Below are positions 3,160 through 41,445 of a stretch of DNA of 64,000 nucleotides, one piece after another. The translations under genes were made by a program, and so were the position numbers. The DNA comes from a virus. The stretch is from IMG/VR virus record IMGVR_UViG_3300029993_000005, positions 1 to 64,000 of that record, one strand, 5' to 3'. A model generated the notes under the pieces. The model worked only from the letters and a program-made list of their open reading frames with translations. It ran no database searches and was not told where the DNA came from. The first letter of the stretch is position 1. Every line of letters begins with the position of its first letter.

Positions 3160-4275
3160 ATCACACGGAATCAAGTTAATCATCTTATGGATGATCCAGA
3201 AGTGATCCGAGTATAGCTCATGCGCTTGAAGTAGCCCGAGCGGTACCCACTTGACCTCTTCGAAATCATCGTTTGCCTCTACGAGAGGTAAAGAAGTATT
3301 GTCGTTCAGTAGATACAGATACGCATGCGTGATGATGCGTCCCCGGTCATCTGACCGATTCGGATCAGAGAACACGTGCTTGAACCTGAATGACAGGTCC
3401 AACATTGAACGCGGTAACTTAATGCGTGTTTCCTCGTGAGATTCACGCAATGAACTGTCAGCTAACACTTCGTCATCGTGTGCAAATCCACCTGGTAGCG
3501 CCCACAGTCCTTTACCAGGATTCAATTTGCGTTTACCCAGCAGTACGTGTGATGACTGAATGAACACTGAATCAGTAGTCGTCATTATAGGACGATAGGG
3601 TTTGTTGCCCGCATACTGGTGCTCAATTTTGTACTGAGCAGCAAAGTCACGCTGATCGCGCAAACCATCTATAAACTCAACGTTACGTGGAATCCAAGTA
3701 TCAAGATACTCCGCCACGGGTTCAGGTACGTGCTGCCGTGAATAGTTCCACGTACCGGCCAGAATGGAATCGCGTAGATCCGTTGCATTTAGAGTCACAC
3801 CTAAGCCGGGCATACCCAACTGTTGTACCTTGTAACCATGCACGTTGACTGAACCCCACTGCGGGAATTTCTTCAGATAGTACGAGGTATGGTCCTTAGA
3901 GAAACCAATCAGTCCTATAGTCCTAGGTATAGGCCAATCATCATCTGCAAGTTTGTTCTGAACGTAAGCAACCTTCTTATGGACATCCATACACCAGTGG
4001 AAATCGTGGTCATGCATGTGATCGTCTAAGAACTGAACGATGATGCGACTGTCTCTGATTTCCTGCTTGTACGTGCGCCATAGCATCTCTTCGACTTCAA
4101 CTGCCGTCCAGGGATTCTTTCGGGTACGAGGGCGGTTGGCTGAACCCGTCAAGACCAGTACATGACGCGCTTTCTTTAATGCTTCATCAATAACATGCTT
4201 GTGGCCATTATGTAAGGGGCGAAATCGACCAATGAACACAAGCATATCGAATTCATACTCATAGATGTTTGACAT
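3157..4275 (-). CDS. nadM: Bifunctional NMN adenylyltransferase / Nudix hydrolase
   Basis: A 372-residue two-domain protein. The N-terminal half is a nucleotidyltransferase fold with FIGRFRPLHNGHKHV (residues 14-28; HxGH motif) and NATDLRDSI near residue 185, and should join ATP and NMN to NAD+. The C-terminal third is a Nudix domain: GFAHDDE, then LRESHEETRI, matches the GX5EX7REUXEE pattern, although the usual Gly after EE is Arg. The same fusion is known in Synechocystis and in KVP40-like phages. In those proteins the Nudix part acts on ADP-ribose-type compounds; here that is inference. I chose the ATG at 4275 because of its GGAGA site; an upstream in-frame start at 4332 has none. Confidence 0.92.
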   Translation of the reverse strand: MSNIYEYEFDMLVFIGRFRPLHNGHKHVIDEALKKARHVLVLTGSANRPRTRKNPWTAVEVEEMLWRTYKQEIRDSRIIVQFLDDHMHDHDFHWCMDVHKKVAYVQNKLADDDWPIPRTIGLIGFSKDHTSYYLKKFPQWGSVNVHGYKVQQLGMPGLGVTLNATDLRDSILAGTWNYSRQHVPEPVAEYLDTWIPRNVEFIDGLRDQRDFAAQYKIEHQYAGNKPYRPIMTTTDSVFIQSSHVLLGKRKLNPGKGLWALPGGFAHDDEVLADSSLRESHEETRIKLPRSMLDLSFRFKHVFSDPNRSDDRGRIITHAYLYLLNDNTSLPLVEANDDFEEVKWVPLGLLQAHELYSDHFWIIHKMINLIPCD

Positions 4276-34333: not shown

Positions 34334-35557
34334 TCAGCCCTTAACGCAGAGTACTTGTTTCAGCGTAGCCTTGATTTCTACCAATTCCGATTGTGCCTCC
34401 ATAACATCATCAATATTTTTATAAGCACCTGGAATTTCGTCCAACACGCTACTATCTTTTTTGCATTCAACACCGGCTGTTTGTGTAGCAATATCGGCTA
34501 ACGAAAAACTACGTTTTGCTTGCCCGCGAGACATGACGCGACCGGCCCCATGACTGCAAGAACAATAAGCTGCTTCATGTCCCTTACCACAGACAATGAA
34601 AGAACGGGCACCCATGGATCCAGGAATGATACCCAGTTGACCTTTGTACGCACCTACAGCACCTTTGCGGGTGATCCATAGAGGGCGTCCACCAAATTCC
34701 TCTTTAGACAGAAAGTTATGATGGCAGTTTACGGCTTCGTTCACCAAAGTGAAAGGTTTAATTGTGCGCTCAACAGCGGACAAAACAAGCATCAGCATGA
34801 GGTCACGATTCAGCTTCGCGTATTCTTGGCTCCACAGCATGGCTTCAACGTACTCATCAAATAGCTCGGTGCCCTCAGCGAACCAGGAAAGATCCTTGTC
34901 TGGCAAATTGACGTGCTGCCTGTACAGCTCTTCTTTTGCCAAGTTGGTCGCGGCCTCACCCACGGTCTTGCCAACATTACGACTACCCGAATGCAACATC
35001 ACCCACACATTTTGGTTTTCATCCACGCACAACTCGATGAAATGATTGCCACCACCCAAAGTACCTAACTGCATGTTCATACGAGCTTCGTCAAAACGTT
35101 TGATACGTTTCATGATACGAATTGAGGGAAATCTAGATAACAGTTCCGCACGACGACGGCTGAGTTCCATGCCGACTAAACCTTGATGACGCAGGTGAAT
35201 ATCCCGTTGATGGTAGCTAAAACCTACAGGTACATCGCGTTCGATTTGATGACGGACACCAACCAAACTATCAGGAAGGTCAGAGGCCTTAAGTGACGTC
35301 TGTACAGCACACATGCCGCATCCGATGTCGACTCCAACAGCTGCGGGTATAACTGCCCCAGTCAGAGGTATAACGGAACCAACAGTTGCACCCATACCAA
35401 AGTGTACATCAGGCATCACCGCAACGTGTCCACCAAGAATAGGCAGGTTTGACACGTTGCGTAATTGATCAAGGGCCGTCTGTTCCACGGGCATATTGCC
35501 CGTCCACAGTTTGATTTTACCGCCAAACATTTGCTCATAAACTTCGTTCTGTTGCAT
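34334..35557 (-). CDS. rtcB: RtcB-type RNA ligase
   Basis: Joins RNA 2',3'-cyclic phosphate or 3'-phosphate ends to 5'-OH ends with GTP and Mn2+. The 407 residues carry the metal-binding MPDVHFGMG (48-56), VGVDIGCGMCAV with the conserved Cys (74-85), GTLGGGNHFIE, HSGSRNVG and the guanylylated His in SHGAGRVMSR. The length matches the short RtcB form of E. coli. In phages it can repair tRNAs or rRNA cut by host anticodon nucleases. The promoter at 35621-35648 is directly upstream. Confidence 0.95.
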   Translation of the reverse strand: MQQNEVYEQMFGGKIKLWTGNMPVEQTALDQLRNVSNLPILGGHVAVMPDVHFGMGATVGSVIPLTGAVIPAAVGVDIGCGMCAVQTSLKASDLPDSLVGVRHQIERDVPVGFSYHQRDIHLRHQGLVGMELSRRRAELLSRFPSIRIMKRIKRFDEARMNMQLGTLGGGNHFIELCVDENQNVWVMLHSGSRNVGKTVGEAATNLAKEELYRQHVNLPDKDLSWFAEGTELFDEYVEAMLWSQEYAKLNRDLMLMLVLSAVERTIKPFTLVNEAVNCHHNFLSKEEFGGRPLWITRKGAVGAYKGQLGIIPGSMGARSFIVCGKGHEAAYCSCSHGAGRVMSRGQAKRSFSLADIATQTAGVECKKDSSVLDEIPGAYKNIDDVMEAQSELVEIKATLKQVLCVKG

Positions 35558-36839: not shown

Positions 36840-38369
36840 TTAAATAACTTTGAGCTTACGTGTATCCTTGTTGGCCTGGAACGAACGATCTTTTAGAATC
36901 GCTGCCTTTACCTCAGCCAAGTCCAGCAGGACCTTGGATCGGGGTCGTTTAAGCCATTCATCCAGTTGCTTCAAAACTAATCGCTGTTCTTTCAGCTTGA
37001 GCTTAAGTACCTCTTGATCCAGTTTTGAAAGTTGCCTGACCCTGAGTTCAAGAATCTGCTTTGCCTGATCCCCATCGATTTCTAGATTCTTGGTGAGGAA
37101 CATATCAGGGTCCTTTGCTCGCAGGGCCTTGACTATGATATCAAGTTTATCACAGGCATAAATCAAGAGTTCCGAATAAGCAATAGCTGCTCGTTGCTTA
37201 GTCTGCCTGTAGGCCAAACTCTTGCGTTCCAACTCGATACGCATTACCAGCCACTGCTTAAGCAACTCAGGTACAGACAGTGCAAGAAACTCAGTCTTGA
37301 ACGTGGTGACGCCATCCAGGATCTGGGCCTTACGTTTCGTCACATTGAGTTTGAAACTCACGCTCTTGCGGGTAGCCAGCCTAATCTTTTCCACATATTT
37401 CTCAAACTGCGTCAGATTGTACGCCGGTTTGCATTCAATGGTAAGCGTGGCTGAACCCTTCGAATTGAAGCATCGTAGAGTCTCAGGCATAGCCCGAACC
37501 TTCTCTACAAATTTCTGTAGGTTGGTGCCCGGAGGCCAGTCATTGATTATCAGTTTCTTGCGGTCTAGTTCTACTTGAAGTTCGGACTCGAACTTAACTT
37601 GGGTCTCGCTGCCGGTGAAAAGCCCCATCCACCCTTTTTTGTTCTCCGGAGTCTTGAGTAATTGACCACCCCATTTGTGCGCAAACTTCAGGGTTCGTGC
37701 ATAATCCGTTGGGGCCAGCACTTCACCTTTGAGCATGCGTTCTAGAATCAGAATTACGGAGTCCGGGGTAAAAGTAGGAATCAATGTCGTGATGCCAACG
37801 CCAATTCCTTCGCCACCATTAAGAATTACATTAGGCAATTGAGCGGGTAGTGTTACAGGCTCCACTTCTTTGTTATCGTAGTTAGGTACAAAGCTAGTGA
37901 CGGATGCATGTAGGTAATTGGGATCAAAGAATGTTTGCCCGTATGCTGATAATTGCATGTTCGTGTAGCGCATGGCCGCCGCACCATCAACCATGTTACC
38001 CCAGTTACCTTTTCCGTAGAACACAGAAGTTGGGTGGTTGACCATGGTGGTTATAGCATCGCTAATTGACTTGTCGCCATGTGGATGATATCGACCTAGT
38101 ACAACGCCTACAATACGAGCTGTCTTTTCAAACGATGAAAAAGCTTCCTTTGCCGTCCCATACATATTGCGGCGCTGTACAGGTTTAAGCCCGTCATACA
38201 TATCAGGTACAGAGCGGTCTAGATTAACAGAGATTGCATAGGTAGTCATACGACTACGACCAAAATCTCTTAACGTGGAAGATTTAATGTCATTGTCTTT
38301 TGTGGGCACCAAATCTGCAGAACTTACGGTTTTACGTGATTTCGTCGTAATTCGACGTTTGGCTATCAT
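36840..38369 (-). CDS. Type II DNA topoisomerase subunit A (GyrA/ParC), no C-terminal domain
   Basis: Cuts and rejoins DNA together with the B subunit, so the pair can relax or decatenate DNA. Motifs: SVPDMYDGLKPVQRRNMYG (about 54-72), RYHPHGDKSISDAI (about 92-105), the catalytic Tyr in AAMRYTNMQLS (Tyr135) and a coiled-coil/gate domain up to the end. It stops at 509 residues, so the beta-pinwheel domain needed for negative supercoiling by gyrase is missing; a topoisomerase IV- or T4-like activity is more likely. The ATG at 38369 has AAGGAATAAG. It follows the B subunit at 38422. Confidence 0.9.
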   Translation of the reverse strand: MIAKRRITTKSRKTVSSADLVPTKDNDIKSSTLRDFGRSRMTTYAISVNLDRSVPDMYDGLKPVQRRNMYGTAKEAFSSFEKTARIVGVVLGRYHPHGDKSISDAITTMVNHPTSVFYGKGNWGNMVDGAAAMRYTNMQLSAYGQTFFDPNYLHASVTSFVPNYDNKEVEPVTLPAQLPNVILNGGEGIGVGITTLIPTFTPDSVILILERMLKGEVLAPTDYARTLKFAHKWGGQLLKTPENKKGWMGLFTGSETQVKFESELQVELDRKKLIINDWPPGTNLQKFVEKVRAMPETLRCFNSKGSATLTIECKPAYNLTQFEKYVEKIRLATRKSVSFKLNVTKRKAQILDGVTTFKTEFLALSVPELLKQWLVMRIELERKSLAYRQTKQRAAIAYSELLIYACDKLDIIVKALRAKDPDMFLTKNLEIDGDQAKQILELRVRQLSKLDQEVLKLKLKEQRLVLKQLDEWLKRPRSKVLLDLAEVKAAILKDRSFQANKDTRKLKVI

Positions 38370-38421
38370 CTTATTCCTTGTTGATTTGGGCTGGGGCTTG
38401 AACTTCAATCAGTCAGCAGAC

Positions 38422-41400
38422 TTAGCCCTCGCTATCACAGTTTCCACCCGTAGCATTTGCGGGCAAGCCTAACATGTCCCTGCGATAAGCTACGTCTTCA
38501 TTCATGAGTCTGACAAAATCAACGTGGTCCTCGGACTCAAGAGCCTTGATTTTTATCAGGGATCTAGTAGCTGGATCCATAGCCATGATACGCATCAAGT
38601 CTACATCAATCTCACCGTACCCTTTAACGTGATTTATTAGCGTTGATGATGGGGCTTTAATTTTCTTGAGCTTAACCTGAACTTGACTTAAGGTCTCACC
38701 GCACACTAATTGGTCCTTATGAATAGCATAAAACTCAGGGCTGTTAGCCACGTAGATCAAACCTCGGGTGAACAGGTCCGGCAGATACTTATAAAACAGA
38801 GATAGGAGCAAAGAGTTGATGTGACAATTGCTGGACACGACTCCTGACGGCAGGACGAACGAATGATAGCGTGGGACTGTCAAACAATAGACGGGCACCG
38901 GCTCTTTCAGTTCTTGAACTCTAAGCTTGGATACCGCTTGGTAACCCAATCCACTTTCTTTGTCTGTTAAAGCCTGGTCTTTCAGATGATTGTTTGAGGG
39001 ACACCACACACGATCACCGACCTTCATATCCTTGGACTTAACGTACACAAGTTTTTCATGCTCTGGATGTGGTTCAGTATCACGACCATACATTGCTCGG
39101 GTTACTACACACACCCATTTATGATTTTCATCAACTCTGAATTTCGAACGTCCGATTTCAAAAGCCATTAGTCGGTCTACGTTTTTGACCAATTGCGCGG
39201 TTGCTGGTGCCCAGATTTCTTTTCCGTGGTGCCATACAGGCACCTCAAACACTAGTTGTTCTGCAGTGTTTCCCCGTTCCTGAGTTAAAGAACTATTAGC
39301 GAGGCCTCTAATAGTTGCCGTATGCTCAGTCCAAACAAAGTCCTCTGATTTTGACTGGCTGCGGGCCATACTCCTGACCCGAATTTGAGTGTCGCCAATA
39401 AATGGGCCATCTGGATCCGGGTCAGCCAAACAGATGATTTTGCCAACCGTGAGTTTTGCACAAGGGTCTACGGCCTTTGCGTCATATCCAATAGCTGCCA
39501 GAATATTAACAATTTCTTCACTTTCCAGTGTTGTACCTTTTTTATCCTTTTTTAGTGCATTTTTGACTTTGCCTTTTAATGGCAGTACAGCCTGGTAGGG
39601 GAACCTGGCCTCTTTGGCCGAGCCGCCTGCCGATTCCCCTTCTACGATAAAGAGTTCACGATCCGCAACTTTGGTACGCATATCAAATGAAGCATATTTG
39701 GCGGGCAGTCCATTGCGCTTCACAGCATTCAACGTGGCTGCTGCCTTTTTCGACATCGTGAATTTGGTCTTCAACTCATTGAGCTTAGTCGCTCTTTCAC
39801 ATAAGCGTGAAGCCAATGCTTTATTAGCCTTGAAGAATTCTATGGTGGCTACCGTTAATTTCTTTTGAAATTCAGGACCCATGCGCTCATCGCTAAGTTT
39901 TACCTTATCCTGGGAATTGAACTTGGCTTTATGCAATTTTGCGTTGACTAGGCCAACCAAGCCTTCTTTGAAATCCGATTCACGGAAAGGCAGAATTACT
40001 TTTCCTTTGACCGTTCGGGTCTTGATATGGGGCTTTAAACCCGCGTATAGGGCGCTGACAACGCTATCAACGTGCTTGCCACCCTGGCTATTGGGTAGCC
40101 CGTTGGTGAACCCCCTGAGATCACATCCATCGTAATTGGAGAACGACACAACTACGTCTGCTGCATTCGGATCACCGGGTTCTGATTTATACTCGAAATA
40201 TTTTGATTCGGCACCAACTTTAAACTTGTCTAAGCGTGCTTGAACATACTCAGCGACACCTGTCTTTGACAAGAACTGACGCTTGCCCCTGGGGGTGGAA
40301 ATAATGATGGCGAAACCTGGATTGAAATAAGCCATGATTTCAGCCCATTCAAGTGCTAGTGCCCCAGGGAACTTGTTGGTCGAGAAAATTGAAGCATCGG
40401 GCTTGAAATGAATAACCGTACCCTTCTTGACCAGTGTGCCGTCCGGACCTTTCGGAGCCTTACATTTTGCAACGGGGGATGTTAGCTTACCTTTCTTGAA
40501 ACCTACCGAGTACCATTGGTTCTCGTAGAAAGTATGAACATCAAAGAATTCGGCGGTAGCATTAGTTCCTTTAGCGCCAATACCATGAGTATTTGATACC
40601 AGCACTCCGGGTTCAATAAAATAAGTATGTTGGTTGTCAACAGTCATGCCGTAAACAGGCACGGGTTCTGTTGTGTGGAAAGTTTCCACACTAATGACCG
40701 TGAGCTCACTGTGCGTATACGGCGTGATCAGCATTTGTCCAGGTTCCAACTGTTGGGCCTGAACTTTCAACGTCCAGTAATCAGTGCGAACGTAGTACGG
40801 ATGGTCGGGAGTATTCTCAATAACCGAACCATCGCTTAGGGTTACGCGCACCAATTCATCAACGTATTTGGTTAGTTGTACATGTGATATGAAAGACTGT
40901 GCCTGGACATCATTATCAACGTCCCAAGCAACGATAGGAATTGGTTCTTTATTCGTGGTCCAACGTTCGTATAGTTCTTTGAAGGCTACGGTGTTTCCTT
41001 TAGCTATTCTGACTTGTGTTGAACCAACAAAGCAACCAATCGACACCTCGTAGGCTTCGCTATCATACTTACCTGACGTGTGCAAGGCACCAAAAGCCGC
41101 CTGCATCGTGTCCATTTTGTTGACGACATCCTTGCCATTCACATGAATGTGAGTTTTGGTCACGCCTTGAGGGATGCCGTGGCCCCTATCCAGTACCCAA
41201 AAACTACCGTCGCTATCTACGTGCAACAATACTGCATCGTTACGACCGGCCAGCCCTTCGTCCAACCCGTTGTCCATAAGCTCACGTACAACTAACCACA
41301 ATCCCGACGAATCAGTACCCCCAATGTATTGACTTGCGTTTTTGCGAATAGTGTCAGGCCAAACAAGAGTTTCAATATTTTTACTGGTGTAGGCTGCTAC

Positions 41401-41445
41401 TTTCTTTAACGCTGGATTTGCTTTTGTATTTGGTGTAAGGGCCAT
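38422..41445 (-). CDS. Type II DNA topoisomerase subunit B (GyrB/ParE) with two inteins
   Basis: 1007 residues in total, 666 after removal of two inteins (138-285 and 681-873). Extein motifs: RELMDNGLDEG (ATP-binding Asn near 59), VLDRGHGIPQG, YEVSIG/THGIGAKGTNA (ATP lid), FIVEGESAGGSAKEAR (TOPRIM Glu), and LADPDPDG/CHINSLLLSLFYKYLPDLF (TOPRIM metal site). With the A subunit it forms an ATP-dependent topoisomerase. Both inteins interrupt essential motifs, so the enzyme is inactive until protein splicing. RBS AAAGACC, weak. Confidence 0.92.
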   Translation of the reverse strand: MALTPNTKANPALKKVAAYTSKNIETLVWPDTIRKNASQYIGGTDSSGLWLVVRELMDNGLDEGLAGRNDAVLLHVDSDGSFWVLDRGHGIPQGVTKTHIHVNGKDVVNKMDTMQAAFGALHTSGKYDSEAYEVSIGCFVGSTQVRIAKGNTVAFKELYERWTTNKEPIPIVAWDVDNDVQAQSFISHVQLTKYVDELVRVTLSDGSVIENTPDHPYYVRTDYWTLKVQAQQLEPGQMLITPYTHSELTVISVETFHTTEPVPVYGMTVDNQHTYFIEPGVLVSNTHGIGAKGTNATAEFFDVHTFYENQWYSVGFKKGKLTSPVAKCKAPKGPDGTLVKKGTVIHFKPDASIFSTNKFPGALALEWAEIMAYFNPGFAIIISTPRGKRQFLSKTGVAEYVQARLDKFKVGAESKYFEYKSEPGDPNAADVVVSFSNYDGCDLRGFTNGLPNSQGGKHVDSVVSALYAGLKPHIKTRTVKGKVILPFRESDFKEGLVGLVNAKLHKAKFNSQDKVKLSDERMGPEFQKKLTVATIEFFKANKALASRLCERATKLNELKTKFTMSKKAAATLNAVKRNGLPAKYASFDMRTKVADRELFIVEGESAGGSAKEARFPYQAVLPLKGKVKNALKKDKKGTTLESEEIVNILAAIGYDAKAVDPCAKLTVGKIICLADPDPDGPFIGDTQIRVRSMARSQSKSEDFVWTEHTATIRGLANSSLTQERGNTAEQLVFEVPVWHHGKEIWAPATAQLVKNVDRLMAFEIGRSKFRVDENHKWVCVVTRAMYGRDTEPHPEHEKLVYVKSKDMKVGDRVWCPSNNHLKDQALTDKESGLGYQAVSKLRVQELKEPVPVYCLTVPRYHSFVLPSGVVSSNCHINSLLLSLFYKYLPDLFTRGLIYVANSPEFYAIHKDQLVCGETLSQVQVKLKKIKAPSSTLINHVKGYGEIDVDLMRIMAMDPATRSLIKIKALESEDHVDFVRLMNEDVAYRRDMLGLPANATGGNCDSEG
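38827..39405 (-). other. Intein 2 in the TOPRIM motif: class-3-like mini-intein, 193 aa
   Basis: Starts PFIGDTQIRV and ends SGVVSSN before +1 Cys (CHINSLLL). Position 1 is Pro, not Cys or Ser. The block B region (VDENHKWVC) has Trp at intein residue 97, and block F (VYCLTVPRYHSF) has Cys at residue 174. Pro at position 1 with Trp in block B and Cys in block F is the pattern of class 3 inteins, which use the block F Cys as first nucleophile. The usual third residue (Thr, block G) is Ser. No LAGLIDADG or HNH domain, so it is not mobile by itself. The penultimate residue is Ser, not His. Confidence 0.8.
40591..41034 (-). other. Intein 1 in the ATP-lid motif: class 1 mini-intein, 148 aa
   Basis: Starts CFVGSTQVRIAKG with Cys1, has block B TPDHP (His78), block F VYGMTVDNQHTYF and ends GVLVSN before +1 Thr. 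It lies between SIG and THGIGAKG, the loop that closes over ATP. The residue before the final Asn is Ser rather than the usual His, which often means slow or partner-dependent splicing. No endonuclease domain. Confidence 0.85.

Follow-up and report, generated by a model that had tools for sequence, protein, structure and literature searches.

A Pro1 intein in the TOPRIM metal site of jumbo-phage topoisomerases: candidate class-3-type splicing in a class 1 sequence background

How might an intein splice when its first residue is proline, and from which class of inteins does it descend? These questions are raised by a type II topoisomerase gene in a 64,000-nucleotide stretch of viral DNA (IMG/VR record IMGVR_UViG_3300029993_000005, positions 1 to 64,000; hereafter the window), the large subunit of which contains two inteins, the second beginning with Pro. 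Class 3 inteins have been reported as a clade of single origin (PMC3196547, PMC4031507). Furthermore, a WCT motif engineered into a class 1 intein gave no splicing, and it has hence been argued that an evolutionary path from class 1 to class 3 is not possible (PMC7664689).

An intein within the TOPRIM metal-binding motif

The topoisomerase precursor matches the Pfam gyrase B, TOPRIM, and GyrB C-terminal domains (PF00204, PF01751, and PF00986) as well as phrog_543 (E 1.5e-106); its features are listed in Table 1. Intein 1 is an ordinary class 1 intein with Gly at F:4, and it was not found in those other phages with a homologue of intein 2 for which the GHKL region was read. Near the topoisomerase gene pair, an RtcB-type RNA ligase gene is encoded (window positions 34334-35557, minus strand), the family match of which shows no intein.

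For intein 2, the preliminary description had proposed 193 residues at 38827-39405 with the motifs PFIGDT, HKW, VYCLTV, and SSN/C, all of which are present in the sequence. Its placement exactly in the metal-binding motif of TOPRIM was likewise borne out: the insertion point lies directly after the DxD metal site (LADPDPDG/Pro1...Asn193/CHIN), and intein-free relatives (L030-L033) are continuous across the empty site, reading DADDDG/AHIA, DADVDG/RHIE, DPDVDG/HHIN, and DADPDG/SHIN. An intein-free allele with a DPDG/CHI site gave no match in viral contigs. Intein 2 matched the intein C-terminal region model TIGR01443 with 26.2 bits (cut-off 15.6), and all 8 members of the family described below gave a match to this model. 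An AlphaFold model built from the alignment of this family (mean pLDDT 84.9) matched the fold of solved inteins and BIL domains at an E of about 1e-7. The fold search did not tell intein classes apart, and class 3 backbones have likewise been described as not distinguishable by fold (PMC7664689). In a sequence search of the PDB, Pho RadA was the only match, and a weak one, and no homing endonuclease was found in intein 2. With the splicing motifs A, B, F, and G and a predicted HINT fold between contiguous extein sequences, the sequence and the model together identify intein 2 as an intein.

Table 1. Features of the topoisomerase locus, in window coordinates.
Feature	Position	Strand	Description
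Topoisomerase precursor ORF	38422..41445	(-)	1007 aa, uninterrupted; type II topoisomerase large (GyrB-like) subunit, two inteins
GyrA-like subunit	36840-38408		Next after the large-subunit ORF
Intein 1	40591..41034	(-)	148 aa; Cys1; ends VSN/Thr; in ATPase domain
Middle extein	39406..40590	(-)	Ends in TOPRIM DxD motif LADPDPDG
Intein 2	38827..39405	(-)	Precursor residues 681-873; 193 aa, Pro1 to Asn193
Pro1 codon (CCA)	39403..39405	(-)	Class 1 inteins have Cys/Ser here
Asp92 (B:7)	39130..39132	(-)	Class 1/2 comparison set: always Thr
His95 (B:10)	39121..39123	(-)	Invariant in Pro1 family
Trp97 (B:12)	39115..39117	(-)	
Cys174 (F:4, TGT)	38884..38886	(-)	Invariant; proposed initiating nucleophile
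Ser191 (G:5)	38833..38835	(-)	Invariant; TCN and AGY codons across Pro1 family
Ser192 (G:6)	38830..38832	(-)	Replaces penultimate His
Asn193 (G:7, AAT)	38827..38829	(-)	C-terminal Asn, would cyclise
Cys+1 of C-extein (CHIN, TGT)	38824..38826	(-)	Invariant in intein-bearing phages
C-extein after Cys+1	38422..38823	(-)	HINSLLL..., DNA_gyraseB_C

A family of Pro1 inteins in jumbo phages

Homologues of intein 2 were found at the identical TOPRIM site in at least 7 other jumbo phages, and we refer to them collectively as the Pro1 family. By tblastn, two cultured phages of Burkholderia, BcepSauron and BcepSaruman, were found to carry members, and scans of viral contigs revealed further ones (L008, L009, L011, L012, L013/L014, and L015), with L012, a 231,255-bp record, probably representing Ralstonia phage RSL1. 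For most of these phages, a search with PF14890 indicated that the Pro1-family intein is the sole intein in the record. Neither Burkholderia phage record names an intein, and no report of one in the topoisomerase of these phages was found in the openly accessible literature; our results suggest that the topoisomerase annotations of BcepSauron, BcepSaruman, and probably RSL1 contain an unannotated intein. The family was absent from bacterial and archaeal genomes in a profile search, and nine DNA matches of the VPVYC[FILMV][TS]VP type in the bacterial and archaeal search were judged from their ORFs to be chance.

The eight distinct Pro1-family sequences share 34-61% identity within the intein (mean 48%). 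Six residues are invariant in all eight, namely Pro1, His B:10, Cys F:4, Ser G:5, Asn G:7, and Cys+1, and in L013 and L015, Cys F:4 is the sole Cys of the intein. Thus, the replacement of the first nucleophile by Pro and the Cys in block F, both pointed out for the window member, extend to the whole family, as do its two reported deviations from class 3, Ser for Thr at G:5 and Cys at +1. The Trp that had been counted together with Pro1 and Cys as a class 3 signature proved not to be a family feature: B:12 is Trp in 5 members (window member included) and Phe in 3. Two further traits had gone unnoticed. The G:6 His is absent, being replaced by Ser in 7/8 and by Ala in 1/8, the Ala occurring in the Burkholderia phages (BcepSauron), and B:7 holds Asp (5/8) or Ser (3/8) instead of the class 1 Thr.

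Pro1 is encoded by CCA, CCG, or CCC across the 8 members, and Ser G:5 by both TCN and AGY codons, which are not joined by any single base change. Since the codons for Pro1 and Ser G:5 vary synonymously, these residues are under selection and are not sequencing errors. Of the 162 ungapped columns, 35 are invariant, and these include all five named catalytic positions, which would occur by chance with a probability of about 4e-4 if columns are taken as exchangeable. With regard to vertical inheritance, intein and extein identities across the family correlate with r 0.67, but with a Mantel p of 0.086. As part of what we regard as the best explanation of these data, intein 2 has probably been a long-term resident of the TOPRIM DxD site in one lineage of jumbo-phage topoisomerases.

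Class-3-type splicing as the favored reading

As Pro at position 1 is unable to form a thioester, class 1 chemistry is out, and the invariance of Pro1, Cys F:4, Ser G:5, and Cys+1 makes a class-3-type reaction the best guess. We consider it likely that intein 2 is functional and that its splicing is begun by Cys174, with the N-extein passing to Cys+1. His95 would activate Cys174, assisted by Ser191 in the place of the usual Thr, and Cys174 would attack the Gly-Pro1 bond, so that the N-extein would be held as a block F thioester. Subsequently, the N-extein would be transferred from Cys174 to Cys+1, cyclisation of Asn193 without a penultimate His would free the intein, and an S-to-N shift would restore LADPDPDGCHIN and hence the metal-binding site. 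In this scheme, we infer splicing itself, the initial attack by Cys174, and the succession of branches.

The preliminary description had already suggested a possible class 3 form, in which the block F Cys takes the first step, and the invariant residues make this the best guess. It should be noted, however, that many class 1 inteins have a Cys at F:4 as well (PMC4031507), including some in our comparison set, and that it is not necessarily a nucleophile there; therefore, Cys F:4 alone is no proof of mechanism. Against class-3-type splicing, Ser G:6 together with Cys+1 is a class 2 pattern as well, and neither Trp B:12 nor Thr G:5 is conserved. On the other hand, Asp or Ser at B:7 resembles class 3, with Asp in 6/7 of the canonical class 3 inteins compared and Thr in all class 1 and class 2 inteins compared; within class 3, B:7 is not a conserved position, and inteins carrying Gly or Asp at it have been investigated (PMC7891396). 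The Cys-His-Thr triad of MchDnaB1 is completed by its Thr at G:5 (PMC7664689), a role that the invariant Ser G:5 of the Pro1 family could take over.

Two characterized class 3 inteins offer close parallels. Bvi IcmO shares with the Pro1 family a position 1 without nucleophile, Cys F:4, and Cys+1, and its Cys F:4 is needed first and cannot be replaced by Cys+1 (PMC5222942). By description, it differs in having the class 3 signature of His65, Trp67, and Cys122, compared to Pro1, Ser G:5, Ser/Ala G:6, and Trp/Phe B:12 in the Pro1 family. The AceL NrdHF split intein (MCT; 6zgq), which is among the significant fold matches of the intein 2 model (E 1.2e-5), is a class 3 intein in which B:12 is Met and the G:6 His is missing; exchange of its G:5 Thr for Ala slows splicing about tenfold without abolishing it (PMC7891396). 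It resembles the Pro1 family in lacking the G:6 His and, like the three members with Phe, in lacking Trp B:12, and its contig might be from a phage (PMC7891396); unlike the family, it is split, has Ala1, Thr G:5, and Ser+1, and resides in nrdHF. Thus, with Cys+1 in Bvi IcmO and the non-Trp B:12, missing G:6 His, and altered G:5 in AceL NrdHF, each oddity of the Pro1 family has an experimental precedent in class 3.

With regard to formal classification, Pro in 8/8 members sets the family apart from class 1, which has Cys, Ser, or Thr at position 1. Of the WCT class 3 features, the non-nucleophilic position 1 and Cys F:4 are present, but Ser is invariant where Thr G:5 is expected and Cys is invariant at +1 in place of Ser/Thr, to which Bvi IcmO is the one known exception in class 3 (PMC5222942). 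An operational rule defines class 3 by the lack of Cys at the intein N-end together with Cys at C2:4, and 1701 such inteins were counted by 2020 (PMC7891396); the Pro1 family conforms to this rule, and some members may be among the 1701. The best reading of the sequences is that Pro1-family inteins would work in a class-3-like manner, yet they are not filed here as canonical WCT class 3 because the defining Thr G:5 is replaced.

The main alternative, although a rather improbable one, is a class-2-like reaction, in which Cys+1 would attack the Gly-Pro1 bond directly and Cys174 would only assist, without a block F branch. The class 2 pattern of Ala1, Ser G:6, and Cys+1 (PMC4031507) is indeed approached by the lack of a nucleophile at position 1, the invariant Cys+1, and Ser G:6 in 7/8 members, and the window member shows it in full except for Pro1 in place of Ala1. 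However, class 2 KlbA inteins require Thr B:7 and Asp F:4, the latter in an assisting role (PMC4031507), and the Pro1 family has Asp or Ser at B:7 and always Cys at F:4 (Asp92 and Cys174 in the window). Moreover, G:6 is Ala in the Burkholderia phages, Mja KlbA did not resemble the family in the hhalign profile comparison (E 0.18), and the host gene is a topoisomerase, which argues against orthology to KlbA inteins.

It is very unlikely that intein 2 is a splicing-dead or cleavage-only relic, with the topoisomerase left split or the host enzyme sufficing. Loss of the first nucleophile does stop class 1 splicing unless compensated (PMC3196547); yet dead inteins decay (PMC3196547), and here the catalytic set is conserved with synonymous codon change, the extein reading frames are intact, and the insertion falls within a metal-binding motif. 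Finally, the chance that the intein starts elsewhere, or that an erroneous Pro codon masks the Cys1 of a class 1 intein, is practically nil, as nothing was found in its favor, the PF[IV]G[DE]T motif of block A can be matched ungapped to CF[IV]G[DS]T, and the misread Cys codon named in the preliminary description is in effect excluded by a second record with the same sequence and by homologues encoding Pro in 8/8 members.

The small, endonuclease-free inteins of this family, which would join a Gly-Pro splice junction to Cys, have potential as tools. For a class 3 intein in mycobacterial DnaB, oxidation was found to trap the Cys at F:4 (PMC6195587). Redox control of the topoisomerase via intein 2 is conceivable, with a thiol as the proposed nucleophile and the metal site interrupted until excision.

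Class 1 or class 3 ancestry

The preliminary description had considered a divergent class 3 form; as a statement on descent, this was not supported, since profile comparison placed the Pro1 family near class 1 phage inteins and not near canonical WCT class 3 inteins. For this analysis, seven canonical class 3 inteins, plasmid-borne ones included, served as the comparison set. In hhalign profile-profile comparisons, the Pro1 family matched class 1 with E 2e-18 and class 3 with E 0.07, a contrast in which class 1 is favored by its broader profile. Free of that bias, single class 1 sequences matched the family with E 1e-10 (L009 split intein), 6e-10, and 6e-9, and single class 3 sequences with E 0.002-0.5.

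The motifs point in the same direction. The canonical class 3 inteins compared share an ALALDTP.PTP.GW block A and a DN..HLYLAG..PTHN block F/G, both missing from the Pro1 family, whose corresponding sequences, PF[IV]G[DE]T in block A and EPVPVYCLTVPRYHxFxLPSG in block F/G, are reminiscent of class 1 phage inteins. Alignment with class 1 and class 3 inteins, suggested earlier as a check, supported His B:10 and Cys F:4 and revealed no profile similarity to class 3. Canonical WCT inteins (MchDnaB1, MsmDnaB1, mycobacterial DnaB, and phage TerL) have in common with the family the missing first nucleophile, Cys F:4, His B:10, and Asp B:7, but differ in Trp, Thr, and His being invariant in 7/7, in the ALALDTP block A, and in the PTHN/S or T end. 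The best profile matches were class 1 phage inteins (E 6e-9 to 1e-10) from NrdA (L016/L017), L009, and a DNA polymerase (L051), with a similar block F, in L009 also a similar block A, and in some cases Cys F:4; they differ in having Cys1 and Thr B:7, and the L009 intein has Asp F:4 and an HN end. Class 2 KlbA inteins resemble the family in lacking Cys1 and in Ser G:6 and Cys+1, but have Ala1, Thr B:7, and Asp F:4 and show no profile similarity.

Trees were calculated from 41 columns, with catalytic columns removed, and from 135 columns covering the whole splicing domain. In both, the Pro1 family and class 3 came out as separate starred clades, and the rows nearest to the family were class 1 inteins; forcing the Pro1 family and class 3 together was not rejected by the AU test (p-AU 0.42 and 0.28). 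Overall, these sequence comparisons suggest that Cys1 may have been lost independently in an ancestor of the Pro1 family that belonged to class 1. We tentatively propose a second origin of splicing initiated by Cys F:4: a phage class 1 intein at the TOPRIM site would have lost Cys1 and adapted its Thr B:7, Val G:5, and His G:6.

Alternatively, and compatible with a class-3-type mechanism, the family could be a true descendant of canonical class 3 that diverged at Trp, Thr, and His, a possibility that we place on the unlikely side. The shared lack of a position 1 nucleophile, Cys F:4, and Asp B:7 are consistent with it, as are the single clade that the AU test did not reject (p-AU 0.28-0.42) and the deviations at Thr and Trp known from 4.6% and 6.1%, respectively, of class 3 inteins (PMC7891396). 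Weighing against it are the class 3 E-values given above compared to the profile match to class 1, and the absence of the class 3 block A and block F/G signatures.

The second origin that we tentatively favor would, if true, represent a natural counter-example both to a single origin of class 3 and to the view that class 1 could not give rise to it. As the family combines a class-3-type active site (Pro1, Cys F:4, and Cys+1) with a class 1 sequence background, this evolutionary question becomes directly testable through exchanges of a few residues with its class 1 neighbors, one of which resides in the same topoisomerase gene (L009).

Several other inteins were noticed. The topoisomerase class 1 intein of L009 (about 3500-4110; also L067 and L069) is inserted at EGDSAGG/S, ranks with those class 1 sequences that are nearest to the Pro1 family, and consists of two frames with stops between, being either naturally split or frameshifted. 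The mini-inteins in ribonucleotide reductases of L016 and L017 (L073 and L074) have Cys1, Cys F:4, Thr G:5, and Gly G:6 and are, as read from sequence, class 1 inteins already carrying part of a class-3-like set. A scan for ribonucleotide reductase inteins returned only two, both already known. At G000:C1:126069-130466 (L034, L036, and L084), a split intein seems to interrupt a second gene of the phage from which the window derives: an open stretch of 519 codons terminates in its N-half (CLIGSTQIKL...), an open frame of 661 codons follows, and the gene continues from a C-half, VYDIAMAKDEDPSFIANGIIVHN/T; the sequence between the intein halves may encode an endonuclease. Furthermore, an AAA ATPase of a Streptomyces plasmid (L040) contains two inteins, the first of class 3 with Leu1 and Cys at B:7, and the second possibly starting at CIDSTQVPV.
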